Assembly: GCA_024276275.1 (NCBI GenBank)
Contig: JAJRXM010000045.1
Location: forward strand, 1 to 33,006
DNA: 33,006 bases
Source: Candidatus Zixiibacteriota bacterium
GTDB taxonomy: Bacteria; Zixibacteria; MSB-5A5; GN15; FEB-12
Direction of reading: 5' to 3'
The number at the start of each line of letters is the position of its first letter. Positions within the stretch are counted from its first letter, which is position 1. Made by a program: the position numbers and the translations under genes. This document shows, piece by piece, positions 5,560-28,761 of the stretch. The notes beneath the pieces are model-generated. The model ran no database searches, was not told the DNA's origin, and saw nothing but the letters and a program-made list of their open reading frames with translations.

Positions 5560-6773
5560 TCAACAGTTGTATTGTCCGGTTTTGTTTTTTTTCTCTTTTA
5601 CTTTGACAATATAGACTTCGTCATTTTTTCGAATGTCTGATATCTTAATACCGACTGAATCCCCTTTGGATGCTGCTTTAACATCTTTATTATGAACTTG
5701 CATCGATTCTATAAAAATCCTTTTAAGTCCTGTTTTTTTACCTATGACAACAAGTTGGTCACCGATTTTTATATTTTCATTAAGTTTGATTTCAGCGACA
5801 GAAATTTTTTGATAATAATTAAAGACTTTTCCGATAAACAGTTTTATCTCGGTTGCTTCGTTATTTTCAGCCGTTGAAATATCATCTTCAGTCGGTTTCC
5901 CAAGATAGAAACCTGTCGAAAATTGACGATTGAATACTTGTTCAAGCTCTACAACACCCTTTGCAAGTTCATCCTTTGTTAATTCATTATCGAGTGCCTT
6001 GCGATAGGCACGAGTGACAACATCAACATAGCGAGGGTCACGACCGCTACCTTCTATTTTATAACTAAAGATACCGGCTTTTTTCATATCTTCAATCAGG
6101 TGCAGAGTACATAAATCTTTGGCGGACATCACCCGAGAATTTTCAATCTGCAGTTCGTTGCCTGAACTGTCGGTAATAGTGTAAGACCTGCGGCAATTCT
6201 GGTGACATTCTCCACGGTTGGCAGATTTTTCTGATGTCATTTGCGACATAAAACAACGCCCCGATACGGCAACACACATAGCACCATGGGCAAAACATTC
6301 AATTTCGATGATTTCGGAAATTTCTTTTATCTGCTCCAAATTCAGTTCTCTTGCAAGAACAACTCTTTGGCACCGAGAGATTTATAAAACTCGGCTGACT
6401 GTCTGTTTGAAACCGAAGCCTGGGTAGACACAAAAAACGGAACATTATATTTATTACAGAGCATGATGACAGCGTTGTCCCAGCAGATAATTGCATCGAC
6501 TTTATCTTTGACGGCTTTGATTGTTCCTTCAAGCAGTGTGATTTCTTCGGGATAGATAATTGTGTTGAGAGTCAGAAACAGTTTTACTTTGCGTTCGGAT
6601 TCATTGCACATCACCCTCATTTCATCGAGGTCGGATATGTTGAAATTTTTCGAGTTTGCCCGCATGGAGAAAGTGTTCAGCCCAAAATAAACGGCATCTG
6701 CCCCGGCATTGATTGCCGCAGCCAACATCGGGAAATTTCCCGCAGGAGCCATCAGTTCGTATTTCGGTTTCAT
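5560..6773 (-). pseudogene. Peptidase U32 family protein (TrhP/RlhA-like RNA hydroxylation), frameshifted
   Basis: The two halves of one U32 protein lie in different frames. The N-terminal part (6773-6342; ELMAPAGNFPMLAAAINAGA, ADAVYFGLNTFSMRA) is a TIM-barrel start. The C-terminal part carries the four-cysteine set typical of the family (AHGAMCVAVSGRCFMSQ, then GECHQNC) that binds an Fe-S cluster. Family members act in 5-hydroxylation of tRNA uridine or rRNA cytidine, or in ubiquinone hydroxylation, rather than as proven proteases. The break is at 6366-6368: GCC AAA GAG should read GCC AAA AGA, so one A is missing from a run. The shifted frame then continues RVVLARELNLEQIKEI, exactly as expected. 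Without the lesion the protein would be ~400 residues. It could be a true pseudogene or a sequencing error. Confidence 0.85.
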
Positions 6774-14743: not shown

Positions 14744-16474
14744 ATGCAACGAATTATGACAAACAGTACGTTCAGGTTTCTGATATTGACAGGCATCATT
14801 ATCATGTCAATTTTTATCCGGACAAACGCTATGCCGCCTCATCCGCAAATGCTGGAAGAAGCAAAACAGACAAATAAGCCGTTACCTTATTTTATCACAA
14901 ATTTAGATGAGATGCACAACAAAGGTATTTGTACCGATAAAGATAAGTATGAAGAAATTTATCGAAGTGCTAAAGAGGCAGTAGGTTATTCTCCTCAAAT
15001 AACCGGACAATTTAGAGTACTTGCTATCTTAGTGCAGTTTTCAGATAATCCTAACAGTACACCGGCAACATTGTTTGATTCTTTGTTGTTTGATTCAAAT
15101 GGATATACTGTTCATGATTATTATAATGAAATTTCTTACGGTCAACTGGATTTGATGACAATAGATCTTCCGTCATCAATGGGTTGGGTTACTGCTCCGC
15201 AAACTTACGCCTATTACGTTAACAATCAGAACGGCACAGGTAGTTATCCAAACAACACGCAAAAATTAACTGAGGATTTAGTTGATCTGGTAGACGCAAC
15301 AGTAGATTTTTCAAATTATGATAATGACAATGACGGTTATGTTGACATATTGGCAATGATACATCCAGGACAAGGGGCTGAAGTAAGTGGAAGCAACACC
15401 GATATTTGGTCTCACAAATGGGGTATAAATCCAAAATTGACTAACGACGGTGTGTATGTTTCAAGTTTTACAATTCAACCTGAGTATATAACTACTTTAG
15501 GTGATATGACTATCGGCGTTTTCGCTCATGAATTTGGTCACGGTTTTGGATTACCAGATTTATACGATACTGACAATAGCTCAAAAGGTATCGGTAAATG
15601 GGGTCTTATGGCGTATGGTAGTTGGCTGGGACCTCAAGGTAAAGGCGGTCGACCTTCTCATCCTTGTGCCTGGAGTAGAATTCAACTAGGGTTTGCATCT
15701 GCGACAAATATTACTGCAAATACGAGTGCACAACAAATCAATGATGTAAAAATTGCCGGTGATATTTATAGAATGTGGACTTCGGGTAATATAGGATCGG
15801 AATACTTCTTAGTAGAAAACCGTCAAAGAACCGGTTATGATTCTTATCTACCTAATTCCGGCTTACTTGTTTGGCATATTGATGATGCTAAATCAAACAA
15901 TACTCAGGAGTGGTATCCCGGGTTAAGTGGCTCTGTCCATTATCAAATTGCTTTAGAACAAGCTGACGGTCTTTATGAACTCGAGTACAATAACGATTTA
16001 GGAGATTCGAATGATGTTTTTCCTGGCGGCTTAGGTAAAACATCTTTTAATGCGGTTTCCTCGACAGCATCTGATAGTTATACAAACGGTATTTCTTTCG
16101 TCGCAATCGAAAACATCATATCTAATAGCGGTGTTATAACAGCAGATTTAAATGTCGGCTTGGCAGCATCAATTGACAATGATCAAGGAGTGCCTACCAA
16201 ATTCGAACTTGCCCAAAACTATCCAAATCCATTTAATCCTTCAACAGTTATAAACTTTTATACTCCATCCGGTGGACACGCACTGGTAGAAGTTTACAAT
16301 ATCACAGGGCAAGTAGTTAAAACATTATTAGATGAAAATGTTTCTGCCGGTCAAAACAGAGTTGAATGGGACGGTACAAATTATGCAGGCAGCGAAATAG
16401 CAAGCGGGATGTATCTTTATAGAGTAACTATAAATGATAATTCAGAGACAAAGAAAATGACTTTAATAAAATAA
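14744..16474 (+). CDS. Secreted M6-family metalloprotease with C-terminal Por/T9SS-type sorting domain
   Basis: 576 residues; AAGGAG precedes the ATG. A signal helix covers residues ~10-29. The M6-like catalytic domain runs from ~85 to ~450, with the zinc site HEFGHGFGLPD (H262, E263, H266, third ligand D272) and the downstream Met (WGLMAYGSW). DNDNDGYVD (~193-201) is a probable calcium loop. The last ~90 residues hold FELAQNYPNPFNPSTVINFY and end in ASGMYLYRVTINDNSETKKM..., the FlgD-like/type A sorting domain used to cross the outer membrane and be anchored. Third gene of a tight operon (17 bp after the barrel gene), ended by a strong terminator at 16497-16528. Confidence 0.92.
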   Translation: MQRIMTNSTFRFLILTGIIIMSIFIRTNAMPPHPQMLEEAKQTNKPLPYFITNLDEMHNKGICTDKDKYEEIYRSAKEAVGYSPQITGQFRVLAILVQFSDNPNSTPATLFDSLLFDSNGYTVHDYYNEISYGQLDLMTIDLPSSMGWVTAPQTYAYYVNNQNGTGSYPNNTQKLTEDLVDLVDATVDFSNYDNDNDGYVDILAMIHPGQGAEVSGSNTDIWSHKWGINPKLTNDGVYVSSFTIQPEYITTLGDMTIGVFAHEFGHGFGLPDLYDTDNSSKGIGKWGLMAYGSWLGPQGKGGRPSHPCAWSRIQLGFASATNITANTSAQQINDVKIAGDIYRMWTSGNIGSEYFLVENRQRTGYDSYLPNSGLLVWHIDDAKSNNTQEWYPGLSGSVHYQIALEQADGLYELEYNNDLGDSNDVFPGGLGKTSFNAVSSTASDSYTNGISFVAIENIISNSGVITADLNVGLAASIDNDQGVPTKFELAQNYPNPFNPSTVINFYTPSGGHALVEVYNITGQVVKTLLDENVSAGQNRVEWDGTNYAGSEIASGMYLYRVTINDNSETKKMTLIK

Positions 16475-16841: not shown

Positions 16842-18866
16842 TTAGTATGGATTACAGGGTGGGTAACTGCCACCTGAGAACATATATGCTACCATAGTAA
16901 CAATATCTGAAATATCAACTAATCCAGAACAGTCAAAATCAGCAGAAAGCAGTTCCGGTTGCGGTGAAACACCGCCGTTAAAGCTATAATCGATAATTGC
17001 GACAAGATCTGAAATATCAATATCACCCGAAAAATCTACATCTCCGTGAAATAAGCTTGTGACACCTTTTCTTGTTAAAACTTCAAAAACCGTGGAATCC
17101 CCCCAAGATTCAGATTTAAACGACAAGAAAGAAGATGAATTTATGGGAGTACCTTGCGATGGGTTTACATCTACGTACACAATAGAGCTATCCCCGGCAG
17201 CAATTGCTAAGGAAAAAGTATCCATCGGTATCCATCCCTGAGTATCCCAATAAATAAGATTAAAGATATCATTTATGACGGCATCGTTGCTAATTAATAT
17301 TTCAAAAGTTCTAGTTCCACCTGAATAAACAGCAGAATCAGGAGTGATAATTAAAGATGATACTTGAAAAGGTTCTAAAATTTCAGCAGAATAAGTAAAA
17401 AGAACACCTGAAGAAAACTCATCGGTATTAACACCTACTAAAGTTATCGAATAATAGTTTTCAAAATTCTCTATTATGATTTCACCGTTTTGGTTCGCGG
17501 TATCGAGATTAATAAATTCTATAGAATGAACATTTTGAGCTGTTGACTTAATTACATAGGCAGACCAGTTTCTTGTATTTGAGCCGTTAAATGTCAGTTT
17601 TAGTTTACCTAATTCAGCACCTGGGAAAAAAGAAATATAAGCAGAACCGTAACCGCCAATACTTACCGGCGAATTTGTTATCCCGACCGGATAAGACAGG
17701 TGTGAAGCACTTATAGATAACGGAGGATATAAAGCACCTTCTGAAAAATGAGCACCGTCGTCATTAGCTGCCGTATTAAACATCCAATAGGTAAAGTCTA
17801 CATAGGCAGAATCAATATCCCAACCAAAATTGGCAAGAAGGGTATCAGCATATACAGTAAAAAGGTCATCAAACCTTGCACCTTCCCATGCGGCAACATT
17901 GATAAGGGTGTCAAATTTTTGAGCTAAATATAATGGCCAAATAAATGAACCGTATTTATGGTTTCCGTTGTTGTCCATAAGTGAAGTATGAGGAAAGTCT
18001 AAGAAGTTGTCGAGATAGTTATAATTATCGTTAACGGTATCAAAAACTACTTCCTCTATGTAAGTCGCTCCTGACTCCATAGCCCAGACGTATTCATTGG
18101 CATCATACCCAAATTGTACTGCATGATGATACTCATGAGCAACTGTAGCTTTGGCAGCACCTGCAACTAACCCCTCGGGATCGCTATTAGGCGGAAAGCC
18201 AATAAAATCATTATTGAGGACCAAATAGCTATAAAAGTCATTCCAAGGGTTACTGCCTAACCCTTCTGGAACAGCATACCCATAAAATGATATATTTTCA
18301 AAATATATATCATATAGTGAATCTCCACCGCTCACCCCATCGCTTGGCGGATACATATACCCCAACTCAATATGTTTGCTTAAAGTAGTATCGCAGTATG
18401 CAGCACATTGTTCTATAAAATCAGGAATAGAATCATTATCTAAATCTAACGGAGGAACACTGTTAAAACCTGTAGTATCATAATGCAATTTAAAGAATCC
18501 ACCAGGAGTAATATATGTAAAGCTTGTTGATGATCTGGCTAAAGCTATAGAAAAGTAATTTTTTGTGTTTTGTTCTAAAAGGTCCCAATTTGAACGAATT
18601 TGAATAAATGCCAACGTAGCTCCACGTAGTTCAAGTTCCGATTTGTTTAGCGAAAGAGATTTGTAGTTTGGGGGCAACTTTTGAGGATATTTAATACTAT
18701 TTATCTGAAGAATTACTTTTTCATCTAATGAGATTGATCCTTTCAAATAATCATCTTCTATTTGATATAAAACTGACTTTACGGCAAAAGGATTTCCTGC
18801 GGCATGAATAGAACTATAGCATAAACAGAGTATACACACTAAGAAGCCTAGTAAACGAATTTGCAT
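16842..18866 (-). CDS. Secreted MXAN_6640-type metalloprotease with C-terminal dockerin repeats
   Basis: 674 residues; AAGG lies seven bases before the ATG. Signal peptide 1-22 (cleavage near IHA-AG). DLDNDSIPDF (~141-150) is a calcium-loop-like segment. The zinc site is AHEYHHAVQFGYD (H244, E245, H248) with a likely third ligand in WAMESG (E264), matching the MXAN_6640 family of putative metalloproteases. A beta-rich region follows. The last ~70 residues hold two dockerin F-hand repeats (GDVDFSGDIDISDLVAII at ~608 and ADFDCSGLVDISDIVTMV at ~642), calcium-binding modules of cellulosome type that are also widespread in non-cellulosomal FCB proteins. The cohesin partner is not in the window. 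Confidence 0.88.
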   Translation of the reverse strand: MQIRLLGFLVCILCLCYSSIHAAGNPFAVKSVLYQIEDDYLKGSISLDEKVILQINSIKYPQKLPPNYKSLSLNKSELELRGATLAFIQIRSNWDLLEQNTKNYFSIALARSSTSFTYITPGGFFKLHYDTTGFNSVPPLDLDNDSIPDFIEQCAAYCDTTLSKHIELGYMYPPSDGVSGGDSLYDIYFENISFYGYAVPEGLGSNPWNDFYSYLVLNNDFIGFPPNSDPEGLVAGAAKATVAHEYHHAVQFGYDANEYVWAMESGATYIEEVVFDTVNDNYNYLDNFLDFPHTSLMDNNGNHKYGSFIWPLYLAQKFDTLINVAAWEGARFDDLFTVYADTLLANFGWDIDSAYVDFTYWMFNTAANDDGAHFSEGALYPPLSISASHLSYPVGITNSPVSIGGYGSAYISFFPGAELGKLKLTFNGSNTRNWSAYVIKSTAQNVHSIEFINLDTANQNGEIIIENFENYYSITLVGVNTDEFSSGVLFTYSAEILEPFQVSSLIITPDSAVYSGGTRTFEILISNDAVINDIFNLIYWDTQGWIPMDTFSLAIAAGDSSIVYVDVNPSQGTPINSSSFLSFKSESWGDSTVFEVLTRKGVTSLFHGDVDFSGDIDISDLVAIIDYSFNGGVSPQPELLSADFDCSGLVDISDIVTMVAYMFSGGSYPPCNPY

Positions 18867-20840: not shown

Positions 20841-22568
20841 ATGGCAAAGAAAAAAATAGGCGATTTATTAATCGAAAAAGGATTACTAACTCAAGGTCAG
20901 CTAAAAGAGTGCCTTCACTTTCAGAGTTTTTCAGGACAAAGACTAGGTGAGATATTAGTTGAAAAAGAGTATATCAATGAAGATCAATTGATTGATACAA
21001 TCTCCGAACGACTCTCAATACCTAAAATTTCTCTTGCCTCTATGGTTGTAGACCCAAATGTATTACGACATGTATCTGTCGAAATAGCAAGAAGATATAC
21101 ATTAATTCCTATTTTTGAAATAGGTAATACATTGACGCTCGCAATGGCTGATCCGTTGAATATTATTGCTATCGATGAGATTAAATATCAAACAGGGCTA
21201 AATATTAAAAGAGCTATAACAACGACCTCGGAAATTAAAGAGGCGGTTGAAAAATACTATTCTATTAGCGATTCATTATCCCATATTATACATGAAACAG
21301 ATGAATCGAAAGAAGCCGGTAAGAAAGAACTTTCAGAGGGATTTATAGTAGACTCAGCAGAGGCTGACTCCCCTATTGTCAAATTTGTTAATATTATTAT
21401 ATCAAAAGCTGTTCGAGAAAATGCTTCTGATATTCACATTGAACCCGGAGAATCACGAATACGTATTCGGTATCGAGTTAGCGGGATAATGCGTGAAGAA
21501 GCAGCCCCTCCCAAAACAATGCAAAGTGAGTTAATCTCCCGAATAAAAGTAGCAGCAGATCTGGATGTTTCAGAAAAGCGGTTACCTCAAGACGGACGGT
21601 TTCTCATGAGTATGGACGGTCGCGGAATTGATTTACGTGTTTCAACTTTACCGACGATTCATGGGGAAAAAATTGTAATTCGTATTCTGGATCGTAAAAA
21701 CCTCTCTTTGACTTTTAATCAACTTGGTATTAATGAGCGGATGGAAGAGCGTTGGAAACAATTGATTCATAAACCGGAAGGTTTAATTCTTATTTCAGGA
21801 CCGACTTCAAGCGGTAAAACCTCGACCCTCTATGCAACTTTACAAGAAATCAACTCGATAGAAAAAAATATAGTAACTGTCGAAGACCCTGTTGAATATT
21901 CTTTACCGTTGATATCGCAAATACAAATCAATGAAAAGTCAGGATTAACATTTCCATCAGCCCTTCGGTCACTTCTTCGTCAAAACCCGGATATAATTAT
22001 GATAGGTGAGATACGAGATGCTGAAACTGCCGGTATGGCAATTCGTTCTTCTTTAACAGGCCATCTGGTATTTTCGACAATACACACCAATGATGCACCG
22101 TCTGCTGTTACCCGCTTAGTCGACATGGGTATAGAAAACTATCTGACCGCATCTGCCGTTAAAGGTGTACTTGCTCAAAGACTCGTTCGTACGAACTGTC
22201 CAAAGTGTGTCGAAGAATATACTCCTCTGGAAACATTGCTGGAGAAAACCGGTCTTTTAGAACTTGCTCAGGCAATGACTTTCAAAAAAGGTGCCGGTTG
22301 TCCAAAATGCCGTATGACCGGTTTCTCAGGTCTTACCGGTATTTATGAACTGTTTGAATTAAACCCGGTTATTTCTGAAATGATTTTATCAAATGCATCC
22401 TTACATTCTATACAGGAAGAAGCTCGAATCTACGGTTATATCCCTCTGTTTGAGATGGGTCTGGAAAAAATAGCAAATGGGCAAATATGTTTGGAAGAGC
22501 TTTTAAAAGAAACTTCAAATATTGAAGCGTTCGAAATTAACAGTTCAAGAAAAAAGGTAACGGCATAA
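20841..22568 (+). CDS. pilB: Type IV pilus assembly / type II secretion ATPase (PilB/GspE)
   Basis: 575 residues. This is the cytoplasmic hexameric motor that powers pilus or pseudopilus extension. The N-terminal MshEN-type domain covers ~1-140 (IGDLLIEKGLLTQGQLKE, repeated with GEILVEKEYINEDQL). Motor motifs: Walker A GPTSSGKTS at ~320, Asp box, Walker B DIIMIGEIRD at ~384 and His box HLVFSTIHTND at ~408. The C-terminal zinc module has CPKC (453, 456) and CPKC (487, 490), as in GspE and PilB. First gene of an eight-gene plus-strand cluster ending with the secretin; the next gene follows after one base. No retraction ATPase PilT is present in the window. Confidence 0.95.
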   Translation: MAKKKIGDLLIEKGLLTQGQLKECLHFQSFSGQRLGEILVEKEYINEDQLIDTISERLSIPKISLASMVVDPNVLRHVSVEIARRYTLIPIFEIGNTLTLAMADPLNIIAIDEIKYQTGLNIKRAITTTSEIKEAVEKYYSISDSLSHIIHETDESKEAGKKELSEGFIVDSAEADSPIVKFVNIIISKAVRENASDIHIEPGESRIRIRYRVSGIMREEAAPPKTMQSELISRIKVAADLDVSEKRLPQDGRFLMSMDGRGIDLRVSTLPTIHGEKIVIRILDRKNLSLTFNQLGINERMEERWKQLIHKPEGLILISGPTSSGKTSTLYATLQEINSIEKNIVTVEDPVEYSLPLISQIQINEKSGLTFPSALRSLLRQNPDIIMIGEIRDAETAGMAIRSSLTGHLVFSTIHTNDAPSAVTRLVDMGIENYLTASAVKGVLAQRLVRTNCPKCVEEYTPLETLLEKTGLLELAQAMTFKKGAGCPKCRMTGFSGLTGIYELFELNPVISEMILSNASLHSIQEEARIYGYIPLFEMGLEKIANGQICLEELLKETSNIEAFEINSSRKKVTA

Positions 22569-22569
22569 G

Positions 22570-23784
22570 ATGTCAACACAGTTTGCATATAGAGCAGTTA
22601 CTCCTGAAGGAAAACCTACGGAAGGTGAATACGTTGCTGAACACGAAGACCAAGTCTCGGCATATCTTACTGATCGTAATCTGATTCCGGTTTCTATTGA
22701 AGAAAAGAAAGACTCTTTCTCATTTTCATTTATGAAAATGTTTACGAAACTTAATGTTGAAGATTTAATCATGTTTACGAATAATCTTTCGACAATGTAT
22801 CGAGCAGGAATTCCGATTTTAAGATCATTATCAATAATAAAAATCGGAAAGCCACAATCATTATTTAATCTCGCTCTTCCAAAAATGTATGCCGATGTAC
22901 AGGCAGGAAAATCCTTATCAGACTATATGAAAGACCATAGAAACGTTTTTTCTGAAGTGTTTATCAGCTCTATTGCCGCCGGAGAAGAATCCGGTAAACT
23001 TGATGATATTTTAGATCAACTTGCTAAAATGCTTGAAAAAGAGATGGAAATAAATCGGCTTATAAAATCCGGTTTACGTTATCCTCTGATAGTATTGACT
23101 ATAATCGGTTTGGCTTTTACTGTTGTCATGACTTATGTTGTTCCAAAATTTATAGACTTTTATGCATCATTTGACTCAGAACTTCCTTTACCGACACAAA
23201 TAATGATCGGTACTTCAAATTTTATCACAAATTATTGGTGGGTTATAATCGGTTTAATCGGTCTTATTATTTATACATTTAAATATATATCCGGTAAACC
23301 GAACGGAAAATTAGCAATTGACCTTGCAATTTTAAAAATGCCTGTTTTCGGTGAATTAATTATCAAAGGAAATGTTGCCAGATTTGCACTCATGTTTCAA
23401 ATACTCTTTAAGTCCGGTTTACCTATTATAAAATCTCTTGATATCCTTACGACATCTGTCACTAACAGCATGATTCAAAAAGAAATTAACAAATTAGCCG
23501 AACTTTTTCGGCGAGGCTCAGAACATCAATTATTACAGACAGAATTCATTTTTTTCCCTTACTTAGCAAAGCAAATGATATCAATAGGTTTAGAATCAGG
23601 TTCACTTGAAAAAATGCTTCTAGAAGTCGGAGAACATTATTCAAAAGAGGTACAATATACCTCAAGAAACCTGACCGCTATTTTAGAGCCTATTTTAACA
23701 GTAATTATATCCGGTTTTGTCCTTTTAATGGCCTTGGCTATTTTCATGCCGATGTGGAATTTAATTAAGGTTTTCAATTCTTAA
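22570..23784 (+). CDS. pilC: Inner-membrane platform protein (PilC/GspF)
   Basis: 404 residues. It links the motor to pilin assembly in the inner membrane. Two copies of the T2SSF helical domain are seen, around residues 65-185 (LIMFTNNLSTMYRAGIPILR, then FISSIAAGEESGKLDDIL) and 265-390 (FALMFQILFKSGLPIIKSL, then QMISIGLESGSLEKML). Membrane helices lie at ~170-190, ~220-238 and ~375-398. The small N-terminal domain (FAYRAVTPEGKPTEGEYVAE) is typical. It starts one base after the ATPase stop, so the two are translationally linked. Confidence 0.95.
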   Translation: MSTQFAYRAVTPEGKPTEGEYVAEHEDQVSAYLTDRNLIPVSIEEKKDSFSFSFMKMFTKLNVEDLIMFTNNLSTMYRAGIPILRSLSIIKIGKPQSLFNLALPKMYADVQAGKSLSDYMKDHRNVFSEVFISSIAAGEESGKLDDILDQLAKMLEKEMEINRLIKSGLRYPLIVLTIIGLAFTVVMTYVVPKFIDFYASFDSELPLPTQIMIGTSNFITNYWWVIIGLIGLIIYTFKYISGKPNGKLAIDLAILKMPVFGELIIKGNVARFALMFQILFKSGLPIIKSLDILTTSVTNSMIQKEINKLAELFRRGSEHQLLQTEFIFFPYLAKQMISIGLESGSLEKMLLEVGEHYSKEVQYTSRNLTAILEPILTVIISGFVLLMALAIFMPMWNLIKVFNS

Positions 23785-23873
23785 TTAGCTTAATAATTCA
23801 TCATAATTGCCGATTATTATAATAAATATGCAATTAATAACTAACCATACCCCTTTTAATTTTGGAGGGTCTC

Positions 23874-24317
23874 ATGAGACTCAAAAACAATCAAAGCGGC
23901 TTTACTCTTATAGAGTTAGTCATGATCATTGTAATTTTAGGAATACTGGCAGCAGTTGCCATCCCTAAATATCAAGATCTATCATCAGAAGCAAAAGATG
24001 CTGCTGCACGTAGTTCACTCGGTTCACTTCGTTCAGGTATCACAATTTTCTATGCTAACGAAGCAGTTAAAAACGGTACCGCAGTATGGCCAACAATTAG
24101 TGAACTAGAAACATCCGGCACAGTAATGGCACAAGCATTACCAAAAAACCCATATCAGTTATCCGGCAATGCACCTGACTCTGTTGTCACAGGTGTCACC
24201 AAAGGCGTTATTGTAGGTACTCGCGGTGGTTGGGCATATAATCCCACAACAGGTGAGGTTTGGCCGAACACTTCCAATAACGGCGGTACTTCTACAACAA
24301 CAGAAAACAACTGGTAG
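23874..24317 (+). CDS. Type IV prepilin / major pseudopilin-like protein
   Basis: 147 residues from the ATG at 23874, which has GGAGGG at good spacing; an upstream TTG at 23862 overlaps that site and is rejected. The leader MRLKNNQSG is cut before FTLIELVMIIVILGILAAVA, with the conserved Glu at mature position 5 needed for assembly. The globular part (WPTISELETSG, NPYQLSGNAP, GGWAYNPTTGEVWP) resembles small pilins of many deltaproteobacterial and FCB genomes. A Ser/Thr/Asn tail ends in ENNW. Cleaved and methylated by PilD, which is not in the window. The strong ribosome site and the ~90-bp gap before it suggest high expression as the main fibre subunit. Confidence 0.93.
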   Translation: MRLKNNQSGFTLIELVMIIVILGILAAVAIPKYQDLSSEAKDAAARSSLGSLRSGITIFYANEAVKNGTAVWPTISELETSGTVMAQALPKNPYQLSGNAPDSVVTGVTKGVIVGTRGGWAYNPTTGEVWPNTSNNGGTSTTTENNW

Positions 24318-24332
24318 GCAGAAGAACTCCAA

Positions 24333-24800
24333 ATGGAGAACTTGTCATACAGCTATCAATCAAAGCTCAATCAGGGTGGTTTCACTCTCATTGAGCTTGT
24401 GATTGTTATAATAACTCTTGGAATACTTGCTGCTGTTGCTATTCCAAAGTTTGCCGACATGACGGAAACATCAAAAAAGACAGCAACAAAAAAAGAAATG
24501 CTCGCATTAAAAAGAGCGATAACCGGTAACGCGGAAGCTATAGCAGGAGGTAGATATATCGACCGAGGATTTGAAGGTGATGTCGGCTTCGTTCCTTCAC
24601 AACTGCTAGACTTGACTGCAAAACCGGGAACTGTATCTGTTTATAACAAGCTCACTTCTTTAGGGTGGAACGGTCCTTATATAGATAACACCGAGAACTC
24701 ATACCTTACTGATTCATGGGGTAATTCTTACATCTACGATACAGGTAATAGGCGACTTATTTCTATAAATGGATTGGACAGCATAATCGTTAATTTTTAA
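24333..24800 (+). CDS. Second type IV prepilin / GspG-like pseudopilin
   Basis: 155 residues. The leader is longer (16 residues, ending NQGG) before FTLIELVIVIITLGILAAVA; Glu5 is present. The C-terminal part has NSYLTDSWGNSYIYDTGNRR, which recalls the calcium-site loop of GspG major pseudopilins (DPWGNPY in relatives). That makes it look more like a type II secretion subunit than its neighbour. Starts 15 bp after the first prepilin; no clear Shine-Dalgarno sequence, so lower expression is likely. Confidence 0.9.
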   Translation: MENLSYSYQSKLNQGGFTLIELVIVIITLGILAAVAIPKFADMTETSKKTATKKEMLALKRAITGNAEAIAGGRYIDRGFEGDVGFVPSQLLDLTAKPGTVSVYNKLTSLGWNGPYIDNTENSYLTDSWGNSYIYDTGNRRLISINGLDSIIVNF

Positions 24801-24814
24801 CACATGATGCTACT

Positions 24815-26422
24815 ATGATAAACAAAATTAAAAAATTGATTACTTATCGAATAGAGAAATCATCAGAAGAGAAAAACCCCGAGAGCGATTTCTTAATTTC
24901 AAGAGTTGACCCTCGTAAAACTTTCCTGTTTGGGAAAGTTCTTTCTTTCTCGTTTGATGATCATTCTTTTCAGATGGCAGCATCATTTCATTATGGTCGT
25001 TCATTTAGAATTATAGATGTCCACAAAGAATACTTTGTGCAAAATGCTGAAGAAACCCTCAATATAGAAGATTTCTATTCTCAATGTTTAGATGAGTTTA
25101 TAACCCAGCATTATAGTCGATTTACAAAGATATTTCTGACTTTAACCGGAGAATCAACTTTATACCGAACTTTCCTACTACCGGAATTAAGTAACAAGGA
25201 ATTATCTTCGGCAGTTCAATTTAAAGTTAAAAAGATAATCCCGTTTCCTATTGAAGAATCGATTTATGATTATCGGGTAATACAAAAGTTTGAAGATATC
25301 GAAAGTCATCGGGTAAAAGTTTCTCTTCATGCTACAACAAAAGAGAACATTTACAAACAATTAGCTCCATTTCAAAATAGCAAAATCACGATTGACAAAA
25401 TATTTCATTCTCAGGACACAATAGGACAGCTTTTAGGTCTGTTTAAAGATTTCGACGAAAACAATAATTATATTTTAATTAATATCGGTAGAAAAGTGAC
25501 CGAGATATCATTCTATCGCGGTAGAACTTTGGAATTTTCCCGTTCCAATGTGCTAAGTACCGATATGCTTGGAAACACCCACGACACTATTAAACTTGAG
25601 TATTTTGCGGAATCAATCGCAAACGAGATTCAGAATTCTCTGGACTTTTATTCGGGTCAATTAAATTCTAGTGCTAATAATAATATCATGCTATACGGTG
25701 ATTTTGCCTATAGTGATGAATTTATAAATATATTAAATGAAAAGCTTGATATAAGCCTGGAAAGATTTCCGATTAATCAATTAAAAATTAAGTTTGGTAA
25801 AGATCATGCTATCGAGTCATTCCCTGTATGTCTTCCGGTGTTGGCTACATCGGTAAACTACTCCCACCTTCCCGATCTTCTTCCTATCCCGCTTAAACTC
25901 AAACGAAAAGCTCGTAAAATTAATAACTATTTACAAATAGCGGCAGCAATAATTGTAACTACATTGATGACATCATGGGCATTTACAAATTCAACAATCA
26001 ATACACTAGCACAAAATAAAAATACTTTAGACAATCAAGTAGGCATTTTTGAAAGATCGGATGCGTTTCATACTTATAAAATGATAAAACAAGAAATTGC
26101 ATATAACAGAATATATATAAACCTTGCTGAAGAAGAACCAAGCTATATGCATTTGAACTTAAAAGAGCTATCCCGAATCACTCCTAAAAATATTAAGTTA
26201 TTTCATCTGGACTACAACCCGAGGATTGAAGATAATAATTATTTCATTCAGGGAATAGTCCTTTCAGATGATATCCCCCCTGAGATTTCTCTAGCGGAAT
26301 TTGTAGAAAATTTATCTTCATCCAAGTTTTATGAAGATGTGCAAATTATCCGACATGTGAAAAAGAAAAACAAATCTCTTTTTGAAATTGAATTCTTAAT
26401 AAAAATGAGAGGAATAGTTTAA
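24815..26422 (+). CDS. pilM: PilM-PilN fusion-like protein (GspL-type)
   Basis: 535 residues, clearly longer than PilM alone (~350). Residues ~30-360 form the actin-like PilM fold (FLLPELSNKELSSAVQFKVK, PFPIEESIYDYRV, YILINIGRKVTEISFYRGR). Residues ~368-390 are a membrane helix (NNYLQIAAAIIVTTLMTSWA), followed by a coiled region and a C-terminal PilN-like periplasmic domain. This gives a cytoplasmic-to-periplasmic layout as in GspL, which equals PilM plus PilN. No separate pilN gene exists in the cluster, supporting a natural fusion. The stop overlaps the start of the next gene by one base. Confidence 0.88.
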   Translation: MINKIKKLITYRIEKSSEEKNPESDFLISRVDPRKTFLFGKVLSFSFDDHSFQMAASFHYGRSFRIIDVHKEYFVQNAEETLNIEDFYSQCLDEFITQHYSRFTKIFLTLTGESTLYRTFLLPELSNKELSSAVQFKVKKIIPFPIEESIYDYRVIQKFEDIESHRVKVSLHATTKENIYKQLAPFQNSKITIDKIFHSQDTIGQLLGLFKDFDENNNYILINIGRKVTEISFYRGRTLEFSRSNVLSTDMLGNTHDTIKLEYFAESIANEIQNSLDFYSGQLNSSANNNIMLYGDFAYSDEFINILNEKLDISLERFPINQLKIKFGKDHAIESFPVCLPVLATSVNYSHLPDLLPIPLKLKRKARKINNYLQIAAAIIVTTLMTSWAFTNSTINTLAQNKNTLDNQVGIFERSDAFHTYKMIKQEIAYNRIYINLAEEEPSYMHLNLKELSRITPKNIKLFHLDYNPRIEDNNYFIQGIVLSDDIPPEISLAEFVENLSSSKFYEDVQIIRHVKKKNKSLFEIEFLIKMRGIV

Positions 26423-26985
26423 TGAATAAACAAAGTTATATTTACCTCTCATCTATTATTCTAGTTCTAAGCTTATGGTTTTTTCTTGTCTATACACCTT
26501 ATGTTCAGGAAAAAGCTGTCTTAAAGAATAAGATCACAGAAAATCTTACTCAACTGCAGGATTTTGAACAAACAATTAGCTTACTTCCTAAATTCATCGC
26601 TGAAAAAGAAGCGTTAAAAAAGAGAAAAGATTATCTGAATTCAAAGTTATATACAAAAGAAGAAGTTATAAATCTTTTTAGCCGCCTTAAGAAAGAAGCA
26701 GCAACGCAACTTCTCGTTGTAACAGAAATTACTCCGCCTATTGAAGAATTGCTAAGTCTGAATAGTATTATACCTGACTCCACGAAACCGCAATTTCTTA
26801 ATATAGGTGTTAAAGTTTCCGGTTCTTATATAGAATTTGCTAAATTTATTAAAAAGATCGAAAGTGAACCGTATTTTCGAGGTATAAACGGATGTAGAAT
26901 TTCCGGAAGTAGAGATTATAATAAAAAACTTGATTTATATTTAGGTTTCAAAGCTCTCTTAGGTCGTATCGGGAATAAATCATGA
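26422..26985 (+). CDS. pilO: PilO-like inner-membrane alignment protein (GspM-type)
   Basis: 187 residues. One N-terminal membrane helix (YIYLSSIILVLSLWFFLVY, ~5-24), then a coiled coil (~28-72, ending AEKEALKKRKDYL), then a ferredoxin-like domain with VGVKVSGSYIEFAKFIKKI-type PilO motifs (GVKVSGSYIEFAKFIKKIES). PilO pairs with PilN in the periplasm and links to PilP. Start overlaps the upstream stop (taATG); the next gene overlaps it by four bases, so translation is coupled. Confidence 0.9.
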   Translation: MNKQSYIYLSSIILVLSLWFFLVYTPYVQEKAVLKNKITENLTQLQDFEQTISLLPKFIAEKEALKKRKDYLNSKLYTKEEVINLFSRLKKEAATQLLVVTEITPPIEELLSLNSIIPDSTKPQFLNIGVKVSGSYIEFAKFIKKIESEPYFRGINGCRISGSRDYNKKLDLYLGFKALLGRIGNKS

Positions 26986-27437
26986 GTGAAAAAACACGCA
27001 CAAAACTGATAGCAGTTTTTCTGGTCGGAGCTATAATATGGGCAGGCTTGAATTACAAATCTAATGAGACTACCCTTACCGAAGCACCTGCTCTCACCGT
27101 ACAACCTATCGACCAGGGATTATACGTTAGAAAACAAAGTACAAACTTGATTGACGTAAAAGCCTTTGACACTCTCTCATGGGGACGTTCTCCATTTTAT
27201 CTAAAGAGATTTACATCGATTAAAAAAGCAAAAATAGAAAAACTAGACAACAGTAAGCTATCATGGATTTTATCAGGAATTATATTCAACAACAGTTCCC
27301 CTACAGCGATTATAAATAAGAGACCGGTTAAAATTGGAGATAAGATAGATAAAGCTATCGTGACTCAAATTGATAAAAATAAAGTTATTATAAAATATAA
27401 ACAAAAAAACATTACGTTAAAAGTTTCAAAAGGATAA
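26982..27437 (+). CDS. pilP: PilP/GspC-like periplasmic linker
   Basis: 151 residues. A single N-terminal membrane anchor (~8-24) is followed by a disordered region with FDTLSWGRSPFYL. The C-terminal beta domain (SWILSGIIFNNSSPTAIINK, VKIGDKIDKAIVTQIDKN) matches the homology region shared by PilP and GspC, which contacts the secretin. GspC-like rather than classical PilP lipoprotein: no lipobox Cys. Coupled to pilO by a 4-base overlap and ending one base before the secretin gene. Confidence 0.82.
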   Translation: MSEKTRTKLIAVFLVGAIIWAGLNYKSNETTLTEAPALTVQPIDQGLYVRKQSTNLIDVKAFDTLSWGRSPFYLKRFTSIKKAKIEKLDNSKLSWILSGIIFNNSSPTAIINKRPVKIGDKIDKAIVTQIDKNKVIIKYKQKNITLKVSKG

Positions 27438-27438
27438 T

Positions 27439-28761
27439 ATGATGAAATTTAAAATAGTATTAATTGGATTATGTCTTCTCTTAAGCAGCTCTCTTGTACA
27501 AGCAAAAGATTCTGTTTTAAAAAATGGCGACAAAATTTCAATGGAACTTGAAGATGTATCACTTCCTATGGTTTTAAATATGATTGCCAGAGAATATAAA
27601 CTGAATATTGTGCTTGCTGATAATATTAAAGGGGAAATATCACTTCGCCTAGACCAAGTTGACCTGCAGACAGCACTAGAGGCAATACTTTATCCAAATG
27701 ATTTTAATTATTATATTAAGAACGATGTTATCATTGTAAAAACTAACGAAGTAAACGCACTCGGAGAACTAGGTTCTGCTGTTATTACTCTTAACTATAT
27801 AGATCCGATTACTGTTAAAGGTGCTTTGGGAATAATGAAATCTGAAAAAGGTAATGTAATCATATTAGACAAACTGGGTACCGGTGACGAGCAGGTATCA
27901 ACAGATGACGGAATCTTTTCACCTAACAAATTATTTATAACAGACTACCCTATTGTTCTCAATAATATGAAAGCAGCAATAGCTGAAATGGATGTTGAAG
28001 AACGAATGGTTTCAATTGCGGTTAAAATAATTTAAACTAAGATAGACCAAACTTTGAAGGTCGGACTAAATTGGCCGACTCAGTTAAATATTTCTGCTGC
28101 AAATGCTCGGATATTTAATGCAACAAACACTTCATCCAATACAAACACTACTACTAATACCAATACGAGTAAAAGCGGAGCAATAACAAAAGATTTAAAC
28201 CAGGGTGGTTGGGTATGGGGAACTCTTACTGTTTCAGAACTAAGCACTATTCTCAACTTGCTTGAACAAAACGGCAACAGTAAACTTATTTCTGATCCAC
28301 ATGTAACAACACTTGAAAACCATGAAGCAGAAATTAAAATTACAACTGTTATTCCTATACCTACGATTAGTCGTTTCACCGAATCAGCCGCAACCCAGGA
28401 TATCGTAACATTCTACGATGAAGAAGTCGGGATAACTCTCAGGGTAACACCTCGCATAAATGAAAACGGGAATATTACATTAACCGTTGAGTCTAAGATT
28501 GAAGATATAATCGGTTATACCGGACCTACAGATTCACAGAAACCGATAACTATTTTACGTTCTGTAGATTCAAAAATAACAGTTGAAAACGGCGAAACCG
28601 CAGCACTTGGCGGCTTACTAAAAGAAGATTAAATAGAACGAATTCAAAAAGTCCCGCTTTTGGGGTCTATTCCTCTTCTAGGTAAGCTATTTCAATCTAA
28701 GCATAATGAGAAAAAAACTACGGACTTAATTATTCTTATCACACCGACAATTCTTAAATAG
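27439..28761 (+). pseudogene. pilQ: Outer-membrane secretin (PilQ/GspD family), one frame interrupted by two TAA codons
   Basis: A 441-codon frame, including its TAG stop, encodes a whole short secretin: signal peptide (~1-22), STN domain (~30-85, MELEDVSLPMVLNMIAREYK), an N1-like domain, and the secretin pore with SKLISDPHVTTLENHEAEIK, VGITLRVTPRINENGNITL, LGGLLKED and VPLLGSIPLLGKLFQS. TAA interrupts it at 28033-28035 (codon 199, after VSIAVKII) and at 28630-28632 (codon 398, after LLKED). The frame is kept throughout and each TAA stands where relatives often carry Glu, one base from GAA. Read literally, only the N-terminal 198 residues are made, without the pore. Possible explanations are nonsense mutation, base-call error or readthrough. 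A Thr/Asn run (~228-245) marks a loop. TAG abuts the stop of the opposite gene. Confidence 0.88.

Follow-up and report, generated by a model that had tools for sequence, protein, structure and literature searches.

The two in-frame TAA codons of the secretin gene examined in this study are most likely base errors in the consensus assembled from the metagenome. They would belong to a load of G:C-to-T:A changes, together with some indels, that extends across this draft genome. This reading is based on comparisons with the genomes of close relatives, in which similar in-frame stops were found in the conserved genes of the same draft genome, including genes that a living cell can hardly lack. The window analyzed, of 33,006 nucleotides, is the whole of contig C9 of a draft genome of Candidatus Zixiibacteriota, which comprises 3.39 Mb in 100 contigs and is rated 95% complete with 0.3% contamination.

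The secretin gene and its gene cluster

The gene at positions 27439–28761 of the forward strand encodes a PilQ/GspD-like secretin, as identified from its Secretin domain, its translation and three intact orthologs of the same genus. It consists of 441 codons and is ended by a normal TAA. The earlier note on this DNA described the frame as free of frameshifts and interrupted by TAA at codons 199 and 398, with which both the translation and the end-to-end alignment with orthologs agreed. The two internal TAA codons are located at 28033–28035 (codon 199) and 28630–28632 (codon 398), and their assignment came from codon alignment and a three-genome test. The C-terminal part of the polypeptide, read through one stop, matched the Pfam Secretin domain (PF00263) with 156 bits, compared with a cut-off of 27.5. 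The intact ortholog of the same-genus genome G003 also possesses the Secretin domain, as well as weak matches to STN and Secretin_N.

The secretin is an ordinary PilQ/GspD-like protein. Similar to secretins of the PilQ, GspD, and HofQ types, it scores above the Pfam cut-off for the Secretin domain, and its gene is found next to a PilP/GspC-like gene and to those for PilM/N, pilins, PilB, and PilC. Different from PilQ and GspD, however, the secretin of the window is short, with approximately 440 residues, and its ortholog of G003 falls under both curated NCBIfam cut-offs, with scores of 199.7 for PilQ (cut-off 284.35) and 188.6 for GspD (cut-off 351.35).

The upstream partner genes, which the earlier note described as looking intact, were all found open. 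All of them are on the forward strand. They encode a PilB/GspE-type assembly ATPase (20841–22568), which is intact and matches PF00437 with 425 bits while remaining under the cut-offs of TIGR02538 and TIGR02533; an intact PilC/GspF-type membrane protein (22570–23784; PF00482); two pilin-like proteins, each with an N-methylation motif (23862–24317 and 24333–24800; PF07963 for both); an intact PilM-PilN fusion-like protein (24815–26422; PF11104 and PF05137); a small PilO-like protein (26422–26985) that matches no family and is named from its position only; and a PilP/GspC-like protein (26982–27437), whose PF11356 match of 24.3 bits is under the cut-off of 27. The earlier note, which regarded a secretin without its pore as useless, also suggested a search for a second secretin. 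One of 429 residues was found intact on the reverse strand of contig C57 in the same genome (L002:1471–2760), which weakens that claim.

Conservation of the secretin among relatives

The named relatives of the secretin were all from Candidatus Zixiibacteriota. The identities between the secretin and its orthologs of G003, G002, and G001 were 78, 73, and 68%, respectively, in end-to-end alignments that contained no frameshift. In all three of these same-genus genomes, the secretin gene is uninterrupted and has Glu at codons 199 and 398. Codon 199 was Glu in essentially every relative aligned, whereas codon 398 varied outside the genus, where Ile, Val, Asp, Asn, and Ser were also observed. Thus, the expectation that Glu was replaced at both TAA codons holds for both sites within the genus, but only codon 199 is a strongly conserved position. 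In the same-family genome G004 (L027), the secretin gene also contains one in-frame TAA, in the context GLLK-X, that is near but not at the site of codon 398. Given that this single TAA is found at a third place, the positions of stops in the secretin are not conserved.

Comparison with G003 gave a dN of 0.153 and a dS of 2.30 for the secretin, with a dN/dS of approximately 0.07, and the selection on it was as strong as that on the neighboring genes. The unique residues of the secretin numbered 10 in this genome, compared with 16 in G003 and 23 in G002. Relative to the same-genus orthologs, none of the signs of a pseudogene, such as raised dN/dS, a frameshift, or an excess of unique residues, was found. 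The comparison with close relatives that had been proposed gave Glu at both sites in three of three same-genus genomes, and the secretin gene is neither decaying nor an old pseudogene.

Both stops of the secretin gene were also reported to read AT-TAA-A. This context is correct, but it is not that of the other in-frame stops of the genome, which include TCC-TAA-C, GGG-TAA-G, and GTG-TAA-G. Because those contexts are different, the AT-TAA-A common to both secretin stops is probably due to chance.

In-frame stops and frameshifts in the genome

The sequences sampled were approximately 0.9 Mb of this genome, approximately 1.2 Mb of G003, and the syntenic parts of G002 and G001. With the genes of G003 as the reference, 69,184 conserved codons of this genome contained 21 raw in-frame stops, approximately 16 after filtering, and 6 frameshifts. 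The reverse comparison, which covered 69,380 codons of G003, identified 3 raw stops, approximately 1 after filtering, and no frameshift. Most of the regions behind the 69,184 codons were sampled blindly, the exception being part of contigs C21, C29, and C52. The syntenic regions, however, were partly picked for holding stops, so that the stop rates of the three- and four-genome comparisons are biased upward.

A first homology scan was swamped by antisense shadow frames and was therefore filtered. The reduction from 21 to 16 stops resulted from the removal of stops in antisense frames and at gene starts. Taken off the list of stops as antisense-frame cases were L082:11982, L086:13972, L168:14314, and L166:4066, and L093:8851 was removed as a likely antisense stop. 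L058:10454, which is common to G002 and near the gene start, was also removed, as it is probably upstream of the true start. An ab initio scan of coding potential for interrupted genes was too insensitive, as the secretin itself was not ranked.

The affected genes, which were named from their intact orthologs, included several core genes. FabF contained two in-frame stops and was the only FabF match in the genome. The alpha subunit of ATP synthase (AtpA) contained one in-frame stop and was the only match above the cut-off. No intact equivalent of FabF or AtpA was found in this genome. Other affected genes encode a NuoF-like protein and a paralog of it, subunit II of cytochrome oxidase (CoxB), an ECF sigma factor, an ATPase of the ABC-F type, an enzyme resembling aspartate aminotransferase, and a heptose-phosphate adenylyltransferase domain. 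Within the window, a U32-peptidase/TrhP-like gene on the reverse strand (5560–6773) is split by a frameshift near 6354–6369, whereas G003 (L154) and G002 (L153) have intact orthologs of it.

When the four genomes were searched for ABC ATPase domains, 33 matches were identified in this genome, of which only the ABC-F gene listed above contained a stop. Thus, the lesion rate is moderate and most genes are spared. At this rate, approximately 12 of 2,500 genes with the length of the secretin gene are expected to carry at least two stops, which makes the presence of two stops in one gene unremarkable. Clustering of the lesions by contig was borderline (P of approximately 0.1). In-frame stops were also observed in the sister genome G002 (loci L147–L162), where approximately 6 were found in 25,000 codons with a mixed base-change spectrum.

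Base-change spectrum

The TAA codons at positions 199 and 398 of the secretin are two of approximately 21 in-frame stops in the sampled conserved genes of this genome. This curated set of 21 nonsense sites was assembled by hand from the sites of the G003 comparison and those identified only by the comparison with G002 or by the first scan. A single G>T change (at Glu and once at Gly) or a single C>A change (at Ser) accounts for 17 of them. In the other four, the replaced residue is Trp, Lys, or Phe once each, and the last site is aligned with Asp. G>T and C>A provide 32% of the single-base paths by which codons of these genes can become stops, and against this expectation 17 of 21 gives a P of approximately 6e-6, a value that is indicative given the hand curation and the presence of some reference codons more than one base away from a stop.

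Missense changes of the same two types that were unique to this genome likewise exceeded expectation when three genomes were compared (P = 0.016, and 0.001 in the best conserved part). Their load was approximately 0.3% of G/C bases, which is similar to the nonsense rate. In the small sample of the four-genome test, no excess of G>T/C>A missense changes was found. TAA was slightly over-represented among the in-frame stops (P = 0.04). In the genes for FabF, an aminotransferase, and a NuoF paralog, it stands at conserved sites where Ser is expected.

Origin of the in-frame stops

Two identical base-call errors were among the explanations that the earlier note considered for the secretin. This explanation is favored here in a broader form, in which G:C-to-T:A base errors in the consensus would be one cause for all of the stops. 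Given that the secretin stops match the others in type and are from the same genome, a single cause is the simplest. The errors would have originated outside the living cell, by oxidation of DNA in the sample or the library, and would have been kept in a thin consensus. It is hard to see how any living lineage could do without FabF, AtpA, CoxB, and the NuoF-like genes all together. Because survival without FabF and AtpA is scarcely conceivable, fixation of the stops in these two genes in the living population is very unlikely. That population very probably possesses an uninterrupted secretin, as the outer-membrane ring of a type IV pilus/type II secretion-like machine.

The lesions are scattered over unrelated genes, core genes included, and their base-change spectrum matches that of a known artifact. 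Consensus errors are also favored by the lack of decay in the secretin, by the frameshift in another gene of the window, and by the missense excess of the three-genome test. C>A/G>T is reported to be a leading artifact of oxidized DNA in short-read data (PMC6337315), and the stops of this genome have the same base-change signature. The artifacts of that study, however, are rare read-level variants with CCG>CAG as the favored context, whereas those of this genome would be in an assembled consensus. Interrupted genes in deposited bacterial genomes are often errors, as were 28 of the 73 interrupted coding sequences of Mycobacterium smegmatis that were resequenced (PMC1852416). Similar to that case, a deposited genome here contains conserved genes with broken frames. 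Different from it, the lesions here are mostly G>T/C>A-biased substitutions in a metagenome draft, whereas the confirmed errors of M. smegmatis were indels and were settled by resequencing. What counts against consensus errors is that the missense excess was absent from the small four-genome test and that the lesions show no clear clustering by contig, which might be expected from thin coverage. The over-representation of TAA is the sole observation that plain error does not predict.

A less likely but still appreciable alternative is that the stops are real and very recent nonsense mutations, which would come from a G:C-to-T:A mutator, from a decaying strain, or from minority genotypes blended into the consensus, and the secretin would then be one of many fresh pseudogenes. 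Loss of MutM, MutY, or MutT, and hence of 8-oxoguanine repair, leads to a G:C-to-T:A spectrum, so that the observed spectrum is also that of cells without this repair. Apart from its stops the secretin is well conserved, which is what a fresh pseudogene would look like, the genome has another secretin that is intact, and several in-frame stops, of mixed spectrum, are found in G002. However, no loss of MutM or MutY was found. MutM was identified with a score over the cut-off and a MutY-like match under it in all four genomes, and neither contained an internal stop. In addition, mutations of this kind would have left the genome with broken FabF and AtpA and with no intact equivalent found. The recent loss of outer-membrane export that the earlier note also raised, specific to this gene and with the rest of the genome intact, is consistent with two stops in one gene whose partner genes are open. 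It is nevertheless the least probable of the explanations, because the same lesions are found genome-wide, FabF and AtpA included, the selection on the secretin is not relaxed, and several genes of this length are expected to carry two or more stops at the genome-wide rate.

It is very improbable that UAA has a second meaning in this bacterium, by which it would be read through as Glu through natural suppression or partial recoding and would possibly control the amount of secretin. Glu accounts for most of the replaced residues and TAA for most of the stops, and UAA is both Glu and stop in Blastocrithidia (PMC12153298). Similar to that case, TAA is found here at sites of expected Glu and as a terminator; different from it, TAA is also found at Ser sites and is rare in frame, and both bacterial release factors are present. 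Thus, this precedent renders the idea not absurd, only unsupported here. A study of bacteria makes the case for frequent readthrough of in-frame stops (PMC7918605) and, as in the secretin, its cases are stops in genes still under purifying selection. That study, however, relied on stops common to several species, whereas those of the secretin are not shared. Also against a second meaning, the replaced residues include conserved Ser as well as Glu, the pattern of the stops tracks the opportunity for one-step G>T/C>A changes, the stops have no common context, and their positions differ between species. TAA is moreover the main terminator, as it ends 95 of the 126 long open frames of the initial sample, and the genes for both class-I release factors, RF1 and RF2, are present without internal stops, so that neither a changed nor a missing release factor was found. 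No tRNA with a UUA anticodon was identified among the 6 tRNAs in the approximately 0.9 Mb scanned. A global change of the code was thus rightly excluded by the earlier note, and its suggestion of TAA readthrough as a control was not borne out. A code with TAA as Glu was also considered and rejected on the same grounds of TAA at Ser sites, TAA as the main terminator, and intact RF1/RF2. Similarly remote is a scenario in which numerous in-frame TAA codons are real and are tolerated by some Zixibacteria through an inefficient and partly misreading translation of UAA, with the secretin and even core enzymes made at a reduced level by readthrough.

If the stops are consensus errors, they are mainly a warning about draft genomes. 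By extrapolation, a draft at 95% completeness may carry approximately 200 false stops, and false stops with a strong G:C-to-T:A bias imitate pseudogenes or a partial change of the code. The spectrum of the stops, together with the comparison of core genes with those of a sister genome, provides a test that needs no reads and can be used to screen other drafts. If the stops were real, they would indicate that bacteria can tolerate nonsense codons in essential genes.

Other features of the draft genome and the window

On contig C8 of this genome (L046, 1,960 bases), the first 600 bases shown read as N. Two large exported proteins were recognized by eye from the translations of the window. The one encoded at 14744–16474 is metalloprotease-like and has a C-terminal sorting-like tail, and the one encoded at 16842–18866 ends in a dockerin-like repeat.
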